Positions 1,438-18,752 of a stretch of DNA of 49,466 nt are shown here, piece after piece. The DNA comes from Fidelibacterota bacterium. GTDB taxonomy: Bacteria; Fidelibacterota; Marinisomatia; Marinisomatales; TCS56. The position numbers and the translations under genes are program-made. Position 1 is the first letter of the stretch. The number at the start of each line of letters is the position of its first letter. The notes under the pieces were generated by a model. It worked only from the letters and a program-made list of their open reading frames with translations, searched no databases and had not been told where the DNA came from. The stretch is taken from positions 1 through 49,466 of the forward strand of contig JABMQW010000090.1 of assembly GCA_013203115.1 (NCBI GenBank), given 5' to 3'.

Positions 1438-1742
1438 AGATTAGACTAAGAAATCAATCAAGTGAAGGGTATTAACTAATCTTGGCACAATATACTGTTG
1501 TCCATGAATATTCAAGTTACCTGATGTAATTTTTAAGTGACATTTGACTAGGTTTGAAATGGAATCAGCAAAGCATAGTACAAAACATAATCCTACAAAT
1601 GATGGGGATAATAGATTTGATGCCTTCAGAATCTTATCATATAACTTGAATTCAACTCTTAAGTGCAACTCAAAGAAAGTTTGTAGATTAAGCAGAGCTG
1701 GTGTAGCATCTCTGCTCTCACAGACTAATATGAGGAGCACAA
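1438..1742. other. Non-coding stretch upstream of IS30 remnant
   Basis: No convincing gene is visible in these 305 bases; open frames on both strands are short and of unlikely composition. The stretch probably includes the leader of the degenerate IS30 element that follows. I could not identify a matching pair of terminal inverted repeats or a target duplication. Confidence 0.5.
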
Positions 1743-2039
1743 ATGAGACACTACAGCCAGCTCACGCTGGAACAAAGGTACGGAATTTATACTTTGCTTA
1801 AAACAGTACATAATCAATCAGAGATTGCCAATGTACTGGGAGTTCATAAATCTACTATATGCCGTGAGCTTAAGCGGAACCGCGGGAAACGTGGTTATAG
1901 ATATAAACAAGCTCAGAGTAAGGCCAAGAATCGTTGTCAGGGAAAAGTGAATCCTCGCATTGATAATAACACTTGGGGATTTATAAAAACGCTCATTGAA
2001 AATGATTGGTCGCAAATTACGCTTCACAATAGCAAGTGA
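1743..2039 (+). pseudogene. IS30-family transposase, N-terminal fragment
   Basis: The 98-residue product starts with the characteristic IS30 opening (HYSQLTLEQRYGIYTLLK) and a helix-turn-helix reading IANVLGVHKSTICRELKRN, the DNA-binding domain of IS30 transposases. Full-length IS30 transposases are usually above 300 residues. Here similarity fades near residue 92 and the frame ends soon after, so the DDE catalytic core is absent. This is a dead element truncated at its 3' side. It lies between the permease and the EEP lipoprotein gene and has no visible second half in the window. Confidence 0.8.
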
Positions 2040-2133
2040 AAACTAGCCGGCGACAATAATATTTATATTTGAGATATTGCTGTATTGTCATTACTATAGA
2101 GCATATTTTACAATGTTTAAAGGAGGAACAATT

Positions 2134-3222
2134 ATGGGATTACCAAAAATAGCAGCATTTCTGTGCATTATAATCTGTATTGGGTGCGATCCACTGGTTA
2201 CAGTATTTGAAGATGTTGAAGATCCGGTAAATTATACCGCCAAAACATTTGTCGAACCAGCGTCTGTCGATACGATCACTATCATGACCTGGAATATCCG
2301 CTTTGGCGCCGCCCGGCTACCCTGGTTTGGTGATTCCTGCGGCGATCGGGTTATGCTGACTGAAGCTGAAGTTTTCGACGGTCTGGAAAAATTGGCTGTT
2401 AGAATTAATGATATTGATCCCGATATAATATTTCTGCAGGAAGTCGATGTCGAATCCAAGCGTACTCAATATATCGATCAGGCTCAGTGGCTGCTGAATC
2501 AAACAGATTTAAACTATGGTGTTTATGCTTCGATGTGGCAAGCCCAGTTTATCCCCAGTGATGGATTGGGCCGAATGGATAATGGGAATGCAATATTGTC
2601 AAAATGGCCTATAACAGATGCTGAACGTATACAATTGCCGCTGCGTGGCGATATGGATGCCTTGACAAAATACTTCTATTTGCGAAGAAATGTAATCAAA
2701 GCACGGATAGAAATTCCGGGAACTGACAATGTTTATGCCGTAGGAATCCATTCATCGGCCTTTGCTACTGATGATACCAAACAGAAACAGATCAATAAAT
2801 ATATTGAGATACTGGATGATATTAACAGTAGCGGTGGTGTATTTATTTCCGGTGGTGATTTAAATGCAATCCCTCCTACAGCAACAAAAACCGATTATTG
2901 TATAGAAGATGCTTGCGATGATGAAGATTTTCATTCAGATGGTGATGATCATCGCGAGGGCAGCTATTTTACTCCTGAAAAAACCTGGCTGGAAGATTTG
3001 TATGAAAAGTATTCGCCTGCCGTTTCATTGACCGAATACAGTAAAATTCAACATGAAGCCCAGTATTTTACCCATACCCCCGATTGGAATGGAGACTGGG
3101 ATCGAAAGTTGGATTACCTGTGGACTAATACCGATTGGGTATCCGGATCGGACTCTACTTTGCAGGAGGCAGTGGAAGCTTCCGATCATGTAGCTGTAAT
3201 CGCACATTGGGAGGTGCCCTAA
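2134..3222 (+). CDS. Secreted endonuclease/exonuclease/phosphatase (EEP) family lipoprotein
   Basis: The start at 2134 is chosen because AAAGGAGG lies 8 bases upstream and the next residues form a lipoprotein signal: a hydrophobic stretch ending in the lipobox CIGC, acylated at about Cys17. A farther upstream in-frame start would put the signal peptide inside the protein. The mature part has EEP-fold landmarks in order: TIMTWNIRFG (Asn), DPDIIFLQEVD (metal-binding Glu), GGDLNAIPP (Asp/Asn), DYLWTN and a closing SDHVAV (Asp-His). The enzyme cleaves phosphodiester or phosphomonoester bonds; its substrate could be nucleic acid, inositol phosphate or sphingomyelin-like and is unresolved. Its stop codon overlaps the next start by one base, so the two genes are likely co-translated. 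Confidence 0.85.
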   Translation: MGLPKIAAFLCIIICIGCDPLVTVFEDVEDPVNYTAKTFVEPASVDTITIMTWNIRFGAARLPWFGDSCGDRVMLTEAEVFDGLEKLAVRINDIDPDIIFLQEVDVESKRTQYIDQAQWLLNQTDLNYGVYASMWQAQFIPSDGLGRMDNGNAILSKWPITDAERIQLPLRGDMDALTKYFYLRRNVIKARIEIPGTDNVYAVGIHSSAFATDDTKQKQINKYIEILDDINSSGGVFISGGDLNAIPPTATKTDYCIEDACDDEDFHSDGDDHREGSYFTPEKTWLEDLYEKYSPAVSLTEYSKIQHEAQYFTHTPDWNGDWDRKLDYLWTNTDWVSGSDSTLQEAVEASDHVAVIAHWEVP

Positions 3223-5280: not shown

Positions 5281-6588
5281 TCAATCAAAGTAAATTATAA
5301 AATCGGTATAATCTGTAGCAGGTCGTTCCAAGGCAAACCTGAATCCGTGGTTCATTAGAATTTCTCTTACCAAAGTTAAACCAATTCCCTGACCATTTTT
5401 TTTGGTACTGAAAAAGGGCGTAAATAACTGTTTCCGGACTTCAAGCGTAAATCCGCCTCCCGTATCTCGAATAATTAAAGTCTTTACCGGCTCAGTAGTA
5501 GTAATGACCGTTATCGTTCCATCGGAGGTAATTGCATCGACTGCATTCTTAACCAGATTGACCAGTACATGTTCAAATTGCTGGACATCGATTATTACTT
5601 CAAAAGGGATCGAAGCCAATTGCCATACCCAGTCAATATTTTTCCGGTGGCACTGTACATGCATTAAAGTTTCTACCGTCTTCAACAGATGATGTAAATC
5701 ATGTTTTTCATAATTTGGTTTCGGCAAGCGAACCACTTCAGCATAATTTGTCATAAAACAATTTAAATGACGGTTCCGGGTAATAACCACGTCAATCGCA
5801 TGCTCAAAATCTGTCTGATCTTCAGCAGGTAGATAGCGCTTATAAGCTAAAAACGAATCGAGGACCGAATTGACTGCTCCGACTGAATTATTAATCTCAT
5901 GGGACATCAATCTAATAATTTTGCCGTAAGCCCGTTTTTCAGACTTGTATAACTCATCGGTCAACTCTTCAATCATAATAAAATGATGGTAAAAGCCTTG
6001 ATTGCGAAATTGCGATTTCCGGCATTTATAGGCCAGGATACCGTTGATTGGAACAATTCGCGCTTCACCGGGAGTTAACCGGCTTAAAACCGTGGCCAAT
6101 TCACTGTCACCTACATCTACTAAATTGAAACCAATACACTGCTTCGCAGAAACACTGATTGCTTTTACTGCTGCCGGATTCAGTTGAGTGATTTTATCAT
6201 CAAAATCTAAAACGATTATTCCCGTCGGCGATGCTTCTATGAGCCGTTCCAAGAAGAAATGCTGTTCCCGCTGCCGTATTCGCTCGGTGCGTAATTGATC
6301 GATCATCTGATTATAAACCTCAATCAATTGGTCCATTTCCACCTGACCCACTTTCACAAACCGGGTACTGAAATCCCGGTCTTTAAGTGTTTCGATGCCG
6401 GCGGTAATCAGATTCACCGGACGAATCAACGACCAGTATATCCCAACGGAAACAGCAATTGAAATTAGAATTAGAATTTCCGTCAATAAAAACCACCAGC
6501 GATGCTGAGCTAATAATTGAAGTGATAAAATAAAAAAGATACTATGCAACAGAATAATAAAGACAATGTACTTGGTTTTTAACCTCAT
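5281..6588 (-). CDS. Membrane sensor histidine kinase of the efflux operon
   Basis: Order of parts: transmembrane segments at about residues 7-27 and 33-54 with almost no periplasmic loop, a HAMP-like linker (55-105), a PAS domain (about 110-210), a HisKA helix with the phospho-acceptor in LMSHEINN (His230), and a HATPase domain with the N-box NLVKNAVDA and glycine motifs DTGGGF and GQGIGLTLV. The lack of a sensor loop suggests that it reads a signal in the membrane, or that its PAS domain senses a cytoplasmic ligand. It is the last gene of a leftward operon and overlaps the response regulator by ATGA. It is the likely partner kinase of that regulator and thereby of the ABC efflux genes. The architecture resembles NtrY-type kinases. 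Confidence 0.88.
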   Translation of the reverse strand: MRLKTKYIVFIILLHSIFFILSLQLLAQHRWWFLLTEILILISIAVSVGIYWSLIRPVNLITAGIETLKDRDFSTRFVKVGQVEMDQLIEVYNQMIDQLRTERIRQREQHFFLERLIEASPTGIIVLDFDDKITQLNPAAVKAISVSAKQCIGFNLVDVGDSELATVLSRLTPGEARIVPINGILAYKCRKSQFRNQGFYHHFIMIEELTDELYKSEKRAYGKIIRLMSHEINNSVGAVNSVLDSFLAYKRYLPAEDQTDFEHAIDVVITRNRHLNCFMTNYAEVVRLPKPNYEKHDLHHLLKTVETLMHVQCHRKNIDWVWQLASIPFEVIIDVQQFEHVLVNLVKNAVDAITSDGTITVITTTEPVKTLIIRDTGGGFTLEVRKQLFTPFFSTKKNGQGIGLTLVREILMNHGFRFALERPATDYTDFIIYFD

Positions 6589-7961
6589 ATATTCAAGCCA
6601 TATTTTTCCAAACGACGATAAAGGGCGGCCCGGCTGAGGCCCAGGGATTGCGCCACCTGCTTGATGTTTTTAGCATGAAATTCAAGCGCCTTTTTAATCA
6701 TGGAAATTTCCACTTCTTCCAAGGTCATTTCTCCTACCTGTGGTAAGGTCAATCCTGATTTTGATTTGGGAGATATTTCCAGTTGGTTGGCAAAATCCGT
6801 TCGCCTAAGTAAATCTTTACCCGTGATTAGTACCGTCCGCTCAACCAGGTTTTTCAATTCCCGGATATTACCTGACCAGGTCAGGCTCTTCAACCAAGCC
6901 ATCGCTTTAGGATCAACCTGTAATTCACTGCGACCATAAATCTTTTTAAGGTTATTAATAAAATGGCGTACCAGAATAGGTATATCGCCGGGATGCTCCC
7001 GTAAAGCTGGCAATTTAATGCTGATTAAATTAATCCGGTAAAAAAGGTCTTCCCGAAAATCACCTTCTGCTACCATCCGGTTCAGATCACGATTGGTAGC
7101 GCAGATCAAACGCACATCAACTTGTTGAGCCTGACTTGAGCCAAGTACTTCAAAGGACCTGTCTTGCAAAACCCGCAGCAGTTTAACCTGGCTAGTTCGA
7201 TCCAAGTCACCGATCTCGTCCAGAAATATGCTGCCCCGGTTGGCCTTCTGAAAACGGCCGATTCGGTCATGGCGGGCATCGGTGAAAGCACCTTTTTTAT
7301 GGCCGAACATTTCACTTTCAAACAAAGTGGTGGAAATTCCACCAAGATTGACTTTTACAAACGGTTGATTACAGCGCGGACTGTTTTGATGGATCGCCTC
7401 GGCGATCAATTCCTTGCCCGTACCGCTTTCACCAAGTATCAAAACCGACGCATCAGTCCCGCTGACCCGTCCGACTGTTTCCAGTACAGTCAGTAATTGA
7501 CGATCCTCGCCAATCAGCTTTTTAAAATCATATTTTCGGTCCAGTTCCTTCCGTGAGCGCGAGCGAATGTGCGCTTCCTGTCCTTCCGGCGATAATTCCA
7601 GGGCTGTCTTGATCGATCGCAGCAGGTGGTCATTCCGCCAGGGTTTGTTGATAAAATCGACCGCACCGGCCTTCATGCCCTGCACCGCCAAATCAATGGA
7701 ACCCCAGGCAGTAATCAGAATAATCGGCATTCCCGATCGCAATTCGTGTAATTCTCCTAAAAGTTCCAGACCTTCTTTACCACTGGTCTCACGTGAAAAA
7801 TTCATATCCAATAAAACCAGCTCGGGGCTATTCCCACGCATTACTTCCAAAGCGGTAACCCGGTCCGGAGCCAACAGTGGCTGGTGGCTAGCGTGTTTCA
7901 ATAACAGTTCGAGCGAGGCGCGGACCGCTGGATCATCATCGATTATCAGAATCTTAGACAT
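6585..7961 (-). CDS. Sigma-54-dependent response regulator (NtrC family)
   Basis: The 458-residue protein has a receiver domain (acidic pocket near residues 8-10, phospho-acceptor Asp52, Thr84, Lys106), an AAA+ central domain and a Fis-type helix-turn-helix (last 45 residues, ending LSRAALYRRLEKYG). The AAA+ domain shows Walker A GESGTGKE (177-184) and Walker B GSIFLDEIGDL. The sigma-54-contacting loop reads GAFTDA at 224-229 instead of GAFTGA. This variant loop still points to an enhancer-binding protein, but its contact with sigma-54 may differ. It most likely activates the operon in which it lies: a palindrome and a candidate -24/-12 promoter precede the adaptor gene. It overlaps the kinase gene by four bases. 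Confidence 0.9.
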   Translation of the reverse strand: MSKILIIDDDPAVRASLELLLKHASHQPLLAPDRVTALEVMRGNSPELVLLDMNFSRETSGKEGLELLGELHELRSGMPIILITAWGSIDLAVQGMKAGAVDFINKPWRNDHLLRSIKTALELSPEGQEAHIRSRSRKELDRKYDFKKLIGEDRQLLTVLETVGRVSGTDASVLILGESGTGKELIAEAIHQNSPRCNQPFVKVNLGGISTTLFESEMFGHKKGAFTDARHDRIGRFQKANRGSIFLDEIGDLDRTSQVKLLRVLQDRSFEVLGSSQAQQVDVRLICATNRDLNRMVAEGDFREDLFYRINLISIKLPALREHPGDIPILVRHFINNLKKIYGRSELQVDPKAMAWLKSLTWSGNIRELKNLVERTVLITGKDLLRRTDFANQLEISPKSKSGLTLPQVGEMTLEEVEISMIKKALEFHAKNIKQVAQSLGLSRAALYRRLEKYGLNI

Positions 7962-8002: not shown

Positions 8003-9220
8003 TCATTCATCGTGCAACGCAATGGCCGGTTGCAGGCTGGCGGCCAGATTGCTCGGGTACAGGGCGCAAACAATTGTGATCAGGTAAATCACCAGGATTG
8101 ATAACAGAATTGAAACCGCATAGGTCATTGTACTTATGAACGGTATCAATCCCAACAGTGGTAATTGCACCGCAAAGAATATCCCTGTAATCATTCCAAA
8201 AGTGGCCAATACCAGTGATTCCCCAACGATCTGAAAATAAATCTGCCGTTCGGTAGAACCCATGGCACGGCGTAACCCAATCTCAGCCTTACGGCGATTG
8301 GTATTGTACCAGATCATCCCGAATAAACCCAGCGCCACATTAATAATTAAAAAACCACAAATAATAGCCATGATTGTCGGAATGATCATTGATTGTTTAT
8401 TGGCTGATATTCGGGCACTATCTAATTGATCAATGTTTATCATCCAGTCCCGGGCCACATGTGTTACTTGTTTCATCAACCGTTCTTCAAAATCCATTGT
8501 TGTACCGGGCCTAACCCGAAACAGAATACGAATAAAGAAAGACTCTTTCAGGAAATCTCGGGTCAGATCATTTTCCAAGGAAGCCCGCCTTAACAGCACT
8601 TTCTTAGAACCGGTAAACTCACCCCCATTACGAAATTCATCGATTAGGCCGACCACTTTAAATTCTTCATTTTCGCCCTGAAAATCCTGATCTTTCCCAT
8701 AAATAATTTTTCCTATCGGATCAGCGCCGGCAAACAGGGCTTCAGCAGCGTATTTATTTAGCACTACCGGAATGTGATTGGCCGCATTATCCTGAAGTCC
8801 AAACCAGCGCCCCTTAACAATATCCAAATTCAACACATCCGGAAAATCATCACCAGTCTGAAACAGATGACAATTAACCGTTTTACCAGCATAATGATAA
8901 TCATCCATCGATGTTGCCGAAGGCATAAACAAATAACTGATTGAATAGGCATGTGAAATTATCTCAGGTTGCGAATCAAGGGTGTTCTCCAACTGGCGAA
9001 GTGTTGCGGCAACTGCTTCCGGGTCCTGTGTTTTCCAATCTATGGACAGATACCAGACATCATCATAATCAAACCCCAGTGGTTTTAAGTAATTCCCAAA
9101 ATTGTAGTTTATAGTTGTCATTACCAGGAATAAACTGAAAAATGAGATGAAAATCCCAATAATCATGAGCGAATTACGGCGTCTGCGATTCCAGATAAGT
9201 TTGAACATTTGTTTAATCAT
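8003..9220 (-). CDS. ABC transporter permease, MacB/FtsX type (second permease)
   Basis: The topology is one N-terminal transmembrane segment (about residues 15-37), a large periplasmic MacB core domain, and three C-terminal transmembrane segments with an FtsX domain, the classical layout of type VII ABC systems. The motif RRKAEIGLRRAMGSTERQIYFQIVGESL marks the FtsX cytoplasmic coupling helix. The family uses ATP hydrolysis in the cytoplasm to drive movements in the periplasm (mechanotransmission) for export of lipids, peptides or antibiotics. The start overlaps the end of the first permease by four bases, so the two are probably made together as a heterodimer. It diverges enough from its neighbour to be a distinct subunit. 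Confidence 0.88.
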   Translation of the reverse strand: MIKQMFKLIWNRRRRNSLMIIGIFISFFSLFLVMTTINYNFGNYLKPLGFDYDDVWYLSIDWKTQDPEAVAATLRQLENTLDSQPEIISHAYSISYLFMPSATSMDDYHYAGKTVNCHLFQTGDDFPDVLNLDIVKGRWFGLQDNAANHIPVVLNKYAAEALFAGADPIGKIIYGKDQDFQGENEEFKVVGLIDEFRNGGEFTGSKKVLLRRASLENDLTRDFLKESFFIRILFRVRPGTTMDFEERLMKQVTHVARDWMINIDQLDSARISANKQSMIIPTIMAIICGFLIINVALGLFGMIWYNTNRRKAEIGLRRAMGSTERQIYFQIVGESLVLATFGMITGIFFAVQLPLLGLIPFISTMTYAVSILLSILVIYLITIVCALYPSNLAASLQPAIALHDE

Positions 9221-10464
9221 TGCTGACCTCCTCTTAAAGCATCAACCGGATTCAGGCGAGACATTTTGTAGGCTGGGTATACTCCTGATAACAGGCCAAA
9301 GCACAGACAGATAACCAGACTGACCATAAAAACCCGGTAATTAAGTGTCAGGTGTAAATGGGGAATCATACCACTGTCATTGATTACCATCAGTACCAGA
9401 ATTGCCAGAAATAAACTTATAGCACCTCCAATCAATGTAATTATTACGTTCTCGGTGATGAATTGCCAAATTAATGTCATCGATGAAGCGCCAAAAGCTT
9501 TTCGCACACCAATTTCCGAGGAGCGCTCCAATATACGACTGATATTAATATTCACCAGGTTAACGGTCGGCAATAGCATGAACAAAAACATCAGAACAAA
9601 AATGAATATCAATAACGGACTTTTAGTGTCGCCCTCTTGCCTGAATAACGAACGGGTTATTGCTTCTGCATATGTATTAGCTCCGGTATTAACACTTACC
9701 CATCGGCCTTCTGGAAACTCCACTTCCTGCAAGTGTTTATTAAATTCACGTTGAATGATTGGCAAATCAGATTTATCACGCGCCAAAATCATGGCATACC
9801 ACCCGGGAAAACCACCCATTATGCAAATTTTATTCAGATCATCCTTAGTATACGTCAGCGGTACCCAGATATCAGAATAAGGCATGATTCGCAATAAAGA
9901 TACGTTTTCCACAATGCCAATAACTCGAAAATTCTGTCCATCAGCTTCGATTGTTTTTCCGAGCGCTGATTCACCCTCGAAATATTTATCCCGCGTTTCC
10001 CGACTGATTACGGCCACCGGATTTCTCATTTCCACATCTTCCGTTGAAAAACCCCGACCCTCTATAAATTCAAAGTCCAGGATTTGCCAGAATTCACCAT
10101 CTACAAATTTTAAAGCAAAATTAAACTTGCGATTATTTTTATAAGTGATGATTGGATTATGAAAAGATGATAACGAGACAAGTTCCGGCGTCTTTAAACT
10201 TTTAACATAGCGCTTCAAAAAATAAGGGCTGAACAATGGGCCAGCAGCCATGCCGCCGGACTTGGATCTCAATATTGACATTGTAACCGACAAGGTTCGG
10301 TCAAGTTTTTTCTCGGGCGTAACCGGACCAAATGTGTGATCCACAAATGATGCTATCACTATGAGAATGAGTAGGGTAAAACTGATTCCGAAAAGACTAA
10401 TGAAAGTAAACAATTTGTGGCGCCACAGAACCTTAATGGCAGTTTTGAAATAATTTTTTAGCAT
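9217..10464 (-). CDS. ABC transporter permease, MacB/FtsX type (first permease)
   Basis: The 415-residue product repeats the MacB layout: a transmembrane segment at about 18-40, a periplasmic MacB core with the recurrent VIGIVENVS strand, then three transmembrane segments. The coupling helix reads RSSEIGVRKAFGASSMTLIWQF and the C-terminal end is SRLNPVDALRGG, the family's usual closing motif. It lies 9 bases after the ATPase gene and overlaps the second permease. Such paired permeases with a separate ATPase and an HlyD adaptor are common in the Bacteroidota and relatives. The exported substrate is not evident. Confidence 0.9.
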   Translation of the reverse strand: MLKNYFKTAIKVLWRHKLFTFISLFGISFTLLILIVIASFVDHTFGPVTPEKKLDRTLSVTMSILRSKSGGMAAGPLFSPYFLKRYVKSLKTPELVSLSSFHNPIITYKNNRKFNFALKFVDGEFWQILDFEFIEGRGFSTEDVEMRNPVAVISRETRDKYFEGESALGKTIEADGQNFRVIGIVENVSLLRIMPYSDIWVPLTYTKDDLNKICIMGGFPGWYAMILARDKSDLPIIQREFNKHLQEVEFPEGRWVSVNTGANTYAEAITRSLFRQEGDTKSPLLIFIFVLMFLFMLLPTVNLVNINISRILERSSEIGVRKAFGASSMTLIWQFITENVIITLIGGAISLFLAILVLMVINDSGMIPHLHLTLNYRVFMVSLVICLCFGLLSGVYPAYKMSRLNPVDALRGGQQ

Positions 10465-11168: not shown

Positions 11169-12416
11169 TTAATTACGGATTACAATCGTATCCAGATGTT
11201 TGTATTTCTCCATATCGGAAATAATAATTCTGTCCCCTGCCCCGATCTCGTTCTCGATCTCAACAAAATCAAGATTCGTCGCTCCAATCCGTACCGTTTT
11301 CCGAATTGCTTTATCACCAACAACGATAAAAATATTCTGTACACCGGGACCATTAACAAAGGGACCGTTTTTTACACGGATAATATTGTCTTTATAGGCC
11401 GTGATAACGAATACATCCACCCGTAGATTGGAACGCAAATTCGGATCTGTTTTCTCTGCCAACTCAATATAAAAGGTAATCGTACCACCTTTGATTGTTG
11501 GTTTGATACCTGTAATCGCTCCCGCAAGATCACGCTGGTTGACTCGAACCCGTACCGGGGCACCCAATTTCAGTCGGGAAATATGAATATCAGAAATCCG
11601 GCCCTCCACTTTATAGCTGGTCAAATCAGCAATTCGTGCTACAATTTCTCCCGGCTGAATAGTGGCGCCAATATTTTCATTCACCCAGGTGATCACGCCA
11701 TTTCGGTCAGCGCGGATATCCGCCAATTCCAGTTGCCGTTCAATTTCCTCTATTGATTTTTCCTGAATACCAATTTTCAGATCAATCTCCCTGATGTCAG
11801 CCTTAAGAGTTTTCTCTTCATTCTCAATCGTATTTTCCAGTAATACCAGTTCCCGGCGGGCAATTTCCAAATTCAAGCGCGCCTGGTCCAAATGGTCTTT
11901 GCTTCCAGCGCCAATTCCATATAAATGTTCCGCCTGATTCAATTTGGAAAGCAATAACTCCAAACTCAATTTTTTTATATCATGCTGTGCCTGCAATTCG
12001 GTGCGGTTACGCTCCAGGGCCAGGTTCAATTGAACCTTTGTATTTTGATGCAATTTCAATTCATCTTCCAGCCGTTCCAATTCCAAGTGGACGAATTCCT
12101 TGTTAAGTTTAAGAATTGCGGAACCAGCCGCTATTTTTTCTCCCGCTTGATGATATACTTCCACGACCGTGGATTTAATCGGACTGGTAATTACCTGCTC
12201 AAAGGCCGGAATTACCGTACCAGAAGCCGAGATTGCATCCTCGATCCGACTACGCTCGGCGATAGCAATTATTATTTTAGATTTCTCAAGGGAAGGTGTG
12301 AAAATGCTTCGTAAACTGAAAAATCCAATTATAATAATCAAAATTAGAATTATTGAACGGAGAATGGTTTTAAATCTCCGTTGCAATAGTTGTTTGGTTG
12401 TTAATTCGCGATCCAA
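11169..12416 (-). CDS. HlyD/MacA-type periplasmic adaptor protein
   Basis: I place the start at a TTG at 12416, giving a product beginning M-D-R-E-L, the usual opening of this adaptor group, with a weak GGAA ribosome site upstream. The frame stays open to another TTG at 12500, but that would put the candidate -24/-12 promoter inside the gene. One transmembrane anchor (about residues 17-36) is followed by a biotinyl-lipoyl half motif, a long alpha-helical hairpin (about 80-205, coiled coil), the second lipoyl half (ADIRADRNGVITWVNENIGATIQPGE) and a beta-barrel domain. It would link the inner-membrane ABC pump to an outer-membrane channel; no TolC-like gene is present here. It is the first gene of the six-gene leftward operon. 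Confidence 0.87.
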   Translation of the reverse strand: MDRELTTKQLLQRRFKTILRSIILILIIIIGFFSLRSIFTPSLEKSKIIIAIAERSRIEDAISASGTVIPAFEQVITSPIKSTVVEVYHQAGEKIAAGSAILKLNKEFVHLELERLEDELKLHQNTKVQLNLALERNRTELQAQHDIKKLSLELLLSKLNQAEHLYGIGAGSKDHLDQARLNLEIARRELVLLENTIENEEKTLKADIREIDLKIGIQEKSIEEIERQLELADIRADRNGVITWVNENIGATIQPGEIVARIADLTSYKVEGRISDIHISRLKLGAPVRVRVNQRDLAGAITGIKPTIKGGTITFYIELAEKTDPNLRSNLRVDVFVITAYKDNIIRVKNGPFVNGPGVQNIFIVVGDKAIRKTVRIGATNLDFVEIENEIGAGDRIIISDMEKYKHLDTIVIRN

Positions 12417-12443
12417 AATGATTTCCGGGTTTGTACATTGTGT

Positions 12444-12459
12444 GTCAACAACTGTGCCG
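12444..12459 (-). promoter_or_regulatory. Candidate sigma-54 (-24/-12) promoter of the efflux operon
   Basis: On the minus strand this stretch reads CGGCACAGTTGTTGAC. Compared with the sigma-54 consensus TGGCACG-N4-TTGCW it keeps GGCAC and TTG with the correct spacing, but has A in place of the usually invariant C of the -12 element. Transcription would begin near 12434, just before the TTG start at 12416. The presence of a sigma-54 activator in the same operon makes the match more meaningful. The match is imperfect and rests on inspection. Confidence 0.45.
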
Positions 12460-12523
12460 TCATATAAGTTGTTGATATATAAAATATTATCAATCAGCAA
12501 ATAAATCTAATTATGTTCAATAC

Positions 12524-12538
12524 CGGACACACTGTCCG
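12524..12538. promoter_or_regulatory. Palindrome CGGACA-CAC-TGTCCG, candidate activator binding site
   Basis: This is a perfect 6-bp inverted repeat with a 3-bp spacer. Its centre lies about 97 bases upstream of the predicted transcription start of the adaptor gene, the usual distance for an enhancer site of an NtrC-type protein. The Fis-type DNA-binding domain encoded in the operon would bind such a dyad. I found only one clear copy; many systems have two. Confidence 0.45.
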
Positions 12539-12601: not shown

Positions 12602-12802
12602 TCAATGCAATAAATCGTGTACCTTTGCTACCAGATCGCTTTTCCTGAAAGGATTTGGTAGTGTTTCCACACCTGATTTTCGGAACTGCTTAACCAGCAT
12701 ACTTTCCGGACTATAACCAGTAATAAATAGGAATTTAACAGCAGAATCACAACAGATGATTTTGAGAGCAATAATTGAATAATTACTTAGAAAATGAATC
12801 AT
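12602..12802 (-). pseudogene. Response-regulator receiver domain, C-terminal remnant
   Basis: The 66-residue frame matches only the last part of a receiver domain: a strand and loop reading FLFITGYSPES, then a helix, then LPNPFRKSDLVAKVHDLL, the beta5-alpha5 end. The phospho-acceptor Asp and acidic pocket are missing, and the conserved Lys before Pro-Phe is Asn here. This is probably the eroded tail of a hybrid kinase or regulator. It overlaps the 3' end of the iron-sulfur protein gene by about 20 bases, so its start region is not real coding sequence. Confidence 0.6.
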
Positions 12803-16526: not shown

Positions 16527-18752
16527 ATGGATCAGGAAACGCACCAAACAATGGAACCCATCTATCTCGATTACAACGCCACAACACCGATTGACCCACG
16601 GGTAGCAGAAGTTATGCTGCCTTTTATCAATCAACATTTTGGAAATCCCTCCAGTAGTCATGCTTACGGAATTACCGCCCGCAAGGCTGTTAATATTGCC
16701 CGGCGGCAAATAGCTGATTTATTGGAATGTTCCTTAGATGAAATCATTTTCACCAGTGGTGGTTCGGAAGCCAACAATTATGCCATCAAGGGGGTTGCTG
16801 AAAATTATCGTGAGCACGGCAATCATATCATTACCTCAGCAATTGAGCATCCGGCCGTCACCGAAGTCTGCGACTATCTCGTGACCCGGGGCTATAAAAT
16901 CTCCCGTCTACCGGTTGACAAATATGGCCTTATCGACCCGGCGCAGGTGGAAGAAGCCCTTACACCGCAGACTATTCTGGTCACGATCATGCACGCCAAT
17001 AATGAAGTAGGTACAATCGAACCACTGGCCGAAATTGCAGAAATTGCTCATCGCCATGCTGTGCTGGTCCATAGTGACTGTGCCCAGTCATTGGGAAAAA
17101 TTCCGGTCACAGTGGCCGAACTGGGTGTCGATTTACTTTCGATCGCCGGCCACAAACTGTACGCGCCTAAAGGAATTGGAGCTTTATATGTCCGCAACGG
17201 CGTGCGGCTGGGAAAACAAATTCACGGTGCCGACCATGAAATGAACCGGCGGGCCGGAACCGAGAACGTGATTGAGATTGTCGGCTTGGGCAAAGCCTGC
17301 GAGCTGGCCGGTGACGACCTGGAAAAAGCAGCGGCTCATCTGCGCAAGCTGCGGGACCGGCTGGAAACGGGATTGAAAAATGAGTTCCCCCAAATTCGTA
17401 TTAACGGCCATCCGGAAAAACGCCTGCCGAATACCAGCAGTATCAGCTTCCCCGGAATGGAAGCCAACACCATCCTGGCAGAACTGGAAGGGGTGGCTGC
17501 CTCGGCCGGGGCGGCCTGCCACGCTGATCAAGTGGATGTATCCTCCGTACTGGAAGCAATGGACCTGCCCTTGGAATACGCCATGGGCACGATCCGTTTT
17601 TCGGTAGGGCGTTTCACCACCAGTGACGAGATCGACCAAGCAATTAACGAAATATCACGAGTCGTAAAACGACTCCAGCCGGCCGATTCCGTGATAATTG
17701 AAACCGATTCAACTGAAAAAATTCGCCTGACCAAATACACGCATGGTTTGGGCTGTGCCTGTAAACTGCGCCCGCAGTTGTTAGAAAAAGTACTACAGAA
17801 ACTGTCTGTGCCGGACGACGCTAATATTCTGGTGGGCACCGACACCGCCGATGACGCTGCCGTCTACCGCATTGATGATAACACGGCTATTATTCAAACG
17901 GTGGATTTTTTCACACCCATTGTTGATGACCCTTACCAATTCGGCGCTATTGCGGCTGCCAATTCATTAAGCGATGTATATGCGATGGGCGGCAAAGCCT
18001 TGTTTGCCCTGAATGTGGTCGGCTTTCCCAGCAATCGCCTGCCCATGTCAGTTTTGGAAGCAATCCTGCTGGGCGCCCAGGACAAGGCGGCTGAGGCGGG
18101 GATCGCAATTATCGGTGGCCACACTGTAGATGACACTGAACCGAAATTCGGCCTGGCCGTCACTGGCATTATCCACCCAAACAAAATCGTGGCCAATGTT
18201 GGCGCTCAACCAGGCGATGCCCTGATTCTTACCAAACCGATCGGAACAGGGATTTTATCCACTGCCCTGAAGCGCGGACTGCTGGAACCGGACCAGGCCG
18301 CGGTGCTTACCGAAACGATGGCGGCTTTGAACAAATTCGCGGCCGAGGCGATGCAGGCCGTTGGCGTTAATGCTTGTACAGATATCACCGGATTCGGTCT
18401 GCTGGGACATTTGCTGGAAATGATGAAGGGCTCTAAACTAAGCGCTGAAATTGATTCATCAGCAATCCCCTTTTTGCCGGGCGCGGTCGAACTGGCAACT
18501 TCTGGTATAATTCCTGGTGGCACCCGCGATAATCGTGACTATACTAATCCATTTGCCGAATATGCCGATGGCATTTCAGAAGTCCGACAATTATTACTCA
18601 ACGATGCCCAGACTTCCGGTGGACTATTGATCGCAGTAGCGCAGGAAAAAGTCAGGGAATTGCTAAAAAAACTTGAGAATAACGGAGTTTTAGCAACCTG
18701 TCAAATCGGAGAGACTGTCAGCCGCGACGCTAAAACATTAATCATCAAATAA
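16527..18752 (+). CDS. Cysteine desulfurase fused to selenide, water dikinase (NifS-SelD)
   Basis: Residues 10-385 form a class V aminotransferase: the PLP lysine is in SIAGHKLYAPKG (Lys210), His107 region reads SAIEHPAV, and the persulfide Cys lies in SAGAACHAD (Cys331). Residues 395-741 form SelD: THGLGCACK holds the catalytic Cys410 (Cys17 of the E. coli enzyme) and Lys413, followed by the glycine-rich ATP-binding segments DDAAVY, GGHTVDD and NDAQTSGGLL. The first domain would release selenium from selenocysteine or sulfur from cysteine, and the second would make selenophosphate. The active site residue is Cys, not selenocysteine. No selA, selB or tRNA-Sec is in the window. It is divergent from the glycosidase gene and appears to be a single-gene unit. 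Confidence 0.93.
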   Translation: MDQETHQTMEPIYLDYNATTPIDPRVAEVMLPFINQHFGNPSSSHAYGITARKAVNIARRQIADLLECSLDEIIFTSGGSEANNYAIKGVAENYREHGNHIITSAIEHPAVTEVCDYLVTRGYKISRLPVDKYGLIDPAQVEEALTPQTILVTIMHANNEVGTIEPLAEIAEIAHRHAVLVHSDCAQSLGKIPVTVAELGVDLLSIAGHKLYAPKGIGALYVRNGVRLGKQIHGADHEMNRRAGTENVIEIVGLGKACELAGDDLEKAAAHLRKLRDRLETGLKNEFPQIRINGHPEKRLPNTSSISFPGMEANTILAELEGVAASAGAACHADQVDVSSVLEAMDLPLEYAMGTIRFSVGRFTTSDEIDQAINEISRVVKRLQPADSVIIETDSTEKIRLTKYTHGLGCACKLRPQLLEKVLQKLSVPDDANILVGTDTADDAAVYRIDDNTAIIQTVDFFTPIVDDPYQFGAIAAANSLSDVYAMGGKALFALNVVGFPSNRLPMSVLEAILLGAQDKAAEAGIAIIGGHTVDDTEPKFGLAVTGIIHPNKIVANVGAQPGDALILTKPIGTGILSTALKRGLLEPDQAAVLTETMAALNKFAAEAMQAVGVNACTDITGFGLLGHLLEMMKGSKLSAEIDSSAIPFLPGAVELATSGIIPGGTRDNRDYTNPFAEYADGISEVRQLLLNDAQTSGGLLIAVAQEKVRELLKKLENNGVLATCQIGETVSRDAKTLIIK

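Follow-up and report, generated by a model that had tools for sequence, protein, structure and literature searches.

Two-component systems of the NtrC family such as ZraSR and AtoSC combine a membrane kinase, a regulator built of receiver, AAA+ and Fis-type domains, upstream activating sites and a sigma-54 promoter, and autoregulation of ZraSR is mentioned in PMC12316311. The Bce-type modules of Firmicutes (BceRS-BceAB; PMC3023708) co-encode an ABC exporter and a two-component system, which induces itself and whose kinase has two transmembrane (TM) segments joined by a very short loop. MacAB-TolC is composed of an adaptor, an ATPase and permease with MacB periplasmic core and FtsX domains, and TolC. 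A survey published in 2025 reported that predicted sigma-54 promoters are enriched before FtsX/MacB-type permeases (COG0577) in Gammaproteobacteria, Opitutia and Bacteroidia, as well as before ATPases (COG1136) in Opitutia, and its accessible text terms sigma-54 control of ABC 'antimicrobial peptide' transporters a previously unrecognised regulatory axis (PMC12316311). In that text the case is made by promoter-matrix enrichment, with no activator or operator named for the transporters, and a search of it returned no mention of Marinimicrobia.

The locus described here lies in a window of 49,466 nucleotides (the whole stretch of DNA that was analysed) and resembles all of these systems while differing from each. 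It has the membrane kinase, regulator architecture, upstream sites and sigma-54 promoter of ZraSR and AtoSC, but its target is an ABC exporter inside the same operon, and the best NCBIfam matches, AtoC (388/714 bits) and AtoS (136/646), are far under the equivalog cut-offs. A HlyD adaptor, an ATPase and MacB_PCD/FtsX permeases place it among the MacAB-type exporters; unlike in MacAB-TolC, ATPase and permease are separate genes, the permease consists of two different halves, and there is no TolC in the window operon. As separate genes they fall outside both the MacB equivalog PRK10535 (222 and 85 bits vs 966) and ADOP TIGR03434, a duplicated protein of ~800 aa to which the two permeases align at 8-403 (149 bits) and at 448-803 (121 bits), the cut-off being 622. 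The permeases at 8003-10464 match the N- and C-terminal halves of ADOP as if ADOP had fused such a pair. With Bce-type modules the locus shares the co-encoded exporter and two-component system and a two-TM kinase with a short loop. The comparison, self-induction included, is an analogy only: here the regulator is of the NtrC type and sigma-54-dependent, the kinase has HAMP and PAS domains, a MacA adaptor is present, and two MacB_PCD-FtsX permeases are found instead of one 10-TM BceB with a ~200-residue loop between TM7 and TM8.

Nothing specific on this module in Marinimicrobia or Bacteroides was found in the searchable open literature, whose coverage leaves out most subscription journals, and the accessible text of a paper on the Bacteroidetes iron stimulon (PMC10434189) does not describe it. 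Whereas the survey offers promoter statistics, we propose here an activator and an operator, with a fixed spacing and a predicted closed loop, in two phyla. NtrC-type sigma-54-dependent autoregulated operons are already known; the new part is the conservation of operator and regulator across phyla.

Results

Organization of the export operon

The window is assigned to Ca. Neomarinimicrobiota (Marinisomatota) by way of its nearest relative, genome G002 (contig JABMPO010000040.1). Six genes run on the minus strand from 12416 to 5281, separated by about 41 bp at most or overlapping slightly, in the order adaptor, ATPase, permease, permease, sigma-54 response regulator and kinase; the next ORF downstream of the kinase gene is on the opposite strand.

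11169-12416, minus strand: MacA/HlyD-type periplasmic adaptor with TTG start (MDRELTTKQLLQRRFK); PF13437 and PF16576, N terminus conserved from the TTG codon
10474-11139, minus strand: ABC ATPase, MacB/LolD/DarD-like; PF00005, best NCBIfam matches under cut-off
9217-10464, minus strand: permease A, MacB-type (MacB_PCD and FtsX); resembles the N-terminal half of the ADOP duplicated permeases
8003-9220, minus strand: permease B, MacB-type (MacB_PCD and FtsX); resembles the C-terminal half of ADOP
6585-7961, minus strand: NtrC-family response regulator with receiver, sigma-54 AAA+ domain and Fis-type helix-turn-helix (HTH), recognition helix SRAALYRRLEKYG; PF00072, PF00158 and PF02954, orthologs aligned
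5281-6588, minus strand: sensor histidine kinase (TM, loop of about 8 residues, TM, HAMP, PAS, kinase); PF00672, PF00989 and PF02518, hydropathy and orthologs

The Pfam domains of the last two genes agree with the first-pass annotation, which had assigned a sigma-54 activator and a kinase to the operon. The GAFTGA-type loop of the AAA+ domain reads GAFTDA in the window regulator and GAFTDA or GSFTDA in its orthologs. TM segments of the kinase were placed at residues about 6-28 and about 32-52, a layout kept in orthologs, and the protein has no periplasmic sensor domain. The window genome has rpoN (Sigma54_DBD, E 4e-56, contig C208) and, besides the operon regulator, at least 7 further sigma-54 activators.

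Upstream of the operon, a startless frame on the minus strand (12602-12760) resembles the C-terminal half of a receiver domain (FITGYSPES...LPNPFRKSDLVAKVHDLL); a Pfam search of this frame gave no match, and at the matching place genome G002 has a 1246-aa propeller hybrid kinase with a receiver at its end, so that the frame is possibly a remnant. Elsewhere in the window, at 16527-18752 on the plus strand, a class-V aminotransferase (NifS/IscS-like) is fused to an AIRS-type domain pair (SelD-like), a combination which suggests selenium delivery.

Control region and adaptor start codon

The palindrome, the -24/-12-like element and the TTG codon described by the first-pass annotation were all located on the minus strand ahead of the adaptor, and the following features were defined.

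12524-12538, minus strand: perfect palindrome CGGACA-GTG-TGTCCG, which shares its right half with the core operator (as the left half-site there) and contributes an accessory third half-site with its left half
12514-12529, minus strand: core operator TGTCC-GGTATT-GAACA, conserved predicted enhancer; TGTYC-N6-GRACA in 11/11 orthologous promoters and 8 Bacteroidota promoters
12445-12459, minus strand: sigma-54 -24/-12 element CGGCACAGTTGTTGA (CGGCAC-N5-TTGA); GGCAY-N5-TTG invariant in 11 orthologous promoters
12433, minus strand: predicted +1 of the transcript, placed from the position of the -24/-12 element; the start codon follows about 17 nt later
12423-12426, minus strand: Shine-Dalgarno-like GGAA, 6 nt ahead of the TTG; seen in the sequence, with AGGA at the matching place in G002

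The TTG codon (12416-12414) shares its reading frame with the first possible start (12500), which lies 84 nt further upstream. Conservation of the adaptor protein begins exactly at the TTG, with LDRELTTKQLLQRRFK in the window and VDRNLTSQQLLKRKF in G002, where the start is GTG; the remaining orthologs have an N terminus of the form [ML]DRE or MDRD and start with ATG, except for TTG in G210, and an MDR[ED] N terminus is common to orthologs as far as Bacteroidota. Because protein conservation begins at this codon, the proposal that the adaptor starts at TTG rather than 84 bases upstream is supported, and the GTG of G002 has no in-frame start upstream of it. The start at 12500 was rejected: it lies upstream of the -24 box, it is not conserved, and the corresponding frame of G002 contains a stop and no start codon.

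Conservation within Ca. Neomarinimicrobiota

A search with permease A against 245 genomes of the phylum returned orthologs in ten other genomes with 54-69% identity, scoring at least 273 bits as compared with at most 107 for paralogs, and in these ten operons gene order was identical to that of the window wherever assembled. A search of the genome contigs with the adaptor alignment returned only the G002 ortholog. Upstream regions were compared for the window and nine of the ten other genomes, as the assembly of G208 breaks off within the adaptor gene. All ten (window included) contain TGTYC-N6-GRACA followed by GGCAY-N5-TTG, with start-to-start distances of 69, 69, 69, 69, 70, 70, 70, 71, 72 and 73 bp. 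The stretch separating promoter and start codon, by contrast, measures anywhere between 27 and 128 bp; such steady operator spacing next to a variable leader indicates that the spacing is held by selection, beyond shared descent of the stretch. Between families, identity was 73% for the dyad and 67% for the promoter, and 35% and 31% for the linker and the upstream flank, respectively.

The composite of operator and promoter was found in 0/4000 dinucleotide-shuffled regions. Scanned for the composite, the 245 genomes yielded 14 sites, of which 11 belong to the adaptor of this operon; the reversed pattern yielded none. One match, in G079, is inside a long ORF and was taken as chance. Since the scan pattern had been fixed on ten sites which the scan later recovered, its independent evidence consists of its specificity and of the eleventh site only, the same promoter ahead of the adaptor start VDRELSSSQIRKE in G212. 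These ten regions and G212 are the eleven promoters referred to throughout. Thus dyad and -24/-12 element, whose conservation in orthologous operons was the test set for the earlier proposal, are both kept at a fixed spacing (10/10 and G212), and the arrangement occurs as a spaced composite far beyond chance.

The operator

The letters TGT.C......G.ACA do not vary among the eleven promoters, and the centre of the core operator is about 88 bp upstream of the predicted +1 in the window and 88-92 bp upstream across orthologs. The exact palindrome is present as a single copy in the 2.64-Mb assembly, a uniqueness to be read with its short length in mind. The suggestion that the palindrome is a regulatory site stands in part: its right half belongs to the conserved operator, but its left half is kept in only about 5/11 orthologous promoters, and the true dyad overlaps it, one helical turn downstream. 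The exact palindrome as operator was ruled out, since only about half of the orthologs retain the left half-site. As a third half-site, about one helical turn further upstream than the core, it is clear in G000, G180, G205 and G201, and GTACA is found there in G002; in its place, a further complete dyad lies 30 bp upstream in G224 and G227. Multiple half-sites are usual for bacterial enhancer-binding proteins (bEBPs), which assemble as oligomers.

Related sites were observed outside the orthologous operons. In G193:C17 (L103, about 1500-3000) a distantly related MacA adaptor and an NtrC-type regulator are divergent, and between them lies the operator GGACA-N5-TGTCC-N6-GGACA, whose three half-sites suggest an older, wider use of the operator. 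In G188:C244 (L102, about 1460-1590) four TGTCC/GGACA-like half-sites in succession are followed by a TGGCACAGCCATTGC box and the C-terminal part of an FtsX-type permease; the locus may be what is left of a related exporter module. A second adaptor type (MDRKIEKKRWTPKK...) exists in the same genomes at G000:C185:8981-10036 and G002:C20; the 300 bp read ahead of the G000 copy showed no TGTYC-type operator.

The -24/-12 element

Matches to the -24/-12 consensus with up to 2 mismatches are at chance level in the window (42 found, 44 expected), so the match carries no signal there by itself and it is conservation among relatives that rescues the element. Its -12 box is TTGA, the consensus being TTGC, and TTGA is found in 9/11 orthologous promoters. 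When the eleven promoter-bearing genomes were scanned for TTGGCACR-N4-TTGH, 50 sites were obtained vs 9 for the reversed control, the commonest last letters being A and T, which suggests that the lineage tolerates relaxed -12 boxes. TTGGCACR-N4-TTG[AT] exceeds its reversed control several-fold in G002, G180, G223, G224, G227 and G231, and identical copies of it recur in G223, G224, G227 and G231. Judging from these motifs, sigma-54 promoters of Ca. Neomarinimicrobiota may often be without the C of the -12 GC.

The same predicted switch in Bacteroidota

A protein search of plasmid records (PLSDB) with permease A led to Parabacteroides distasonis NZ_OY725812.1. In its MacAB cluster a perfect TGGCACG-N4-TTGC precedes the adaptor (MDREISKEVRQKE), the permease pair and the ATPase, and the same operator is found exactly 60 bp upstream of each of these three promoters. 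Scanning the entire 250-kb record for the composite gave 4 sites, all inside a cluster of about 24 kb (control 0); the fourth precedes TolC, the sigma-54 regulator and the kinase, so that TolC, as a further likeness to MacAB-TolC, adjoins the regulator in Bacteroidota. This regulator shares 57% identity with that of the window (other activators, compared over their full length, share about 43% or less), and no second sigma-54 activator is encoded in the record. The arrangement recurs in Phocaeicola massiliensis, whose four sites stand at 61 bp and bring the total for Bacteroidota to 8 composite sites at 60-61 bp, before adaptor, permease, ATPase and TolC-regulator-kinase operons, with regulator orthologs 55-57% identical to that of the window. 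Operator and promoter are closer together than in Ca. Neomarinimicrobiota, by about one helical turn.

The recognition helix SRAALYRRLEKYG is common to the window and Bacteroidota regulators and different in the other activators of the window genome; the helix of the G193 regulator is nearly SRAALYRRLEKYG. On these comparisons the exporter module appears to be a cross-phylum, autoregulated sigma-54 unit of Neomarinimicrobiota and Bacteroidota. Of the Bacteroidales records NZ_OY725812.1, OY725997.1 and OY725983.1, all entered as 'plasmid' in PLSDB, the first contains housekeeping genes, those for ribosomal protein L31 and aldolase, and looks like a piece of chromosome that was labelled wrongly.

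Discussion

We consider it very probable that the six genes form a sigma-54-dependent, positively autoregulated export operon. At the level of sequence comparison, the sigma-54 promoter, the enhancer, their spacing, the operon order and the start codon are established as predicted features. In the mechanism we propose, the membrane kinase encoded by the last gene would phosphorylate the NtrC-type regulator encoded by the fifth, a step for which the adjacent, probably co-transcribed and conserved gene pair argues. Dimers of the regulator would then bind through their Fis-type HTH to TGTYC-N6-GRACA, whose centre lies 88-92 bp before the transcription start and which in many promoters is accompanied by a third half-site, one more helical turn away from the start, and the AAA+ ring would remodel a sigma-54 RNA polymerase waiting at GGCAY-N5-TTGA. 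A single transcript would run from near 12433 through adaptor (TTG 12416), ATPase, two permease halves, regulator and kinase, and since it would carry all six genes, activation would raise the pump together with its own regulator. That the operon's own regulator binds the predicted operator, and that the loop is positive, is strongly indicated by the joint occurrence of its orthologs and the operator in two phyla. The earlier view of pump, regulator and kinase as one autoregulated unit thus gains a conserved promoter and operator, an rpoN gene and an encoded activator; the autoregulation itself we infer from the comparison.

The identity of the binding protein is where another reading has most to offer. 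Promoter and enhancer could be real and yet be served by a different sigma-54 regulator of the cell, leaving the loop open at the operon's own regulator: the seven or more other activators of the window genome supply candidates, and bEBPs within one family can share related sites. We regard this as improbable, as the operator co-occurs with the regulator orthologs in all 10 assembled upstream regions, the Parabacteroides record has a single sigma-54 activator gene and four sites, all in its cluster, and helix SRAALYRRLEKYG is restricted to these orthologs and, in nearly the same form, to the G193 relative with the same dyad, whereas the other activators of the window genome differ. An additional, internal promoter may serve regulator and kinase, the gap before the regulator gene being 41-148 bp, although no composite site was seen in that gap.

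Readings that dispense with sigma-54 altogether fare worse. If the operon had an ordinary sigma-70 promoter, the palindrome could bind a repressor or some different regulator and the -24/-12 match would be a coincidence; in favour of this are a weak CGGACA-17-CATAAT match overlapping the dyad and the chance-level count of -24/-12 matches in the window. However, sigma-70-like matches are themselves as frequent as in shuffles (3 found vs 3.0 expected), GGCAY-N5-TTG is invariant in 11 promoters at a fixed distance from the dyad, and Parabacteroides has its perfect TGGCACG-N4-TTGC at the corresponding place, making this explanation very improbable. Hardly credible, finally, is the view that the palindrome forms a terminator hairpin or arose as a chance repeat, the intergenic DNA being AT-rich. 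It does look terminator-like on the plus strand, where CGGACACACTGTCCG is followed by TTTATAGTTA, but the neighbouring genes are on the minus strand, on which no T-run comes after the palindrome; orthologs retain the half-sites and not the T-tract, and both the absence of the composite from the shuffled regions and the conserved half-sites and spacing speak against chance.

Returning to the autoregulated sigma-54 operon, the signal is probably a membrane- or envelope-acting compound, because the kinase lacks a periplasmic domain; with two TM segments joined by about 8 residues, it probably senses within the membrane, via the pump, or by its PAS domain. By analogy with Bce modules, the pump might take part in sensing. 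More tentatively, and with rather less than even confidence, we suggest a so far undescribed cross-phylum sigma-54 regulon, perhaps extending to the wider FCB group, in which one NtrC-type regulator family with a membrane-sensing kinase would control MacAB-TolC-type exporters and itself through TGTYC-N6-GRACA on one helix face, at 60-61 or 69-73 bp from the promoter. Such a regulon might be the Gram-negative equivalent, under sigma-54 control, of the Bce-type detoxification modules.

The proposed switch ties an activator family and an operator to a class of ABC exporters whose sigma-54 control rested only on promoter statistics. The fixed spacing, with its offset of one helical turn between phyla, offers a natural case in which the positional constraint on enhancer-dependent promoters is cleanly visible, and as Parabacteroides and Phocaeicola are culturable gut relatives, the exported substrate and the kinase signal are directly testable.
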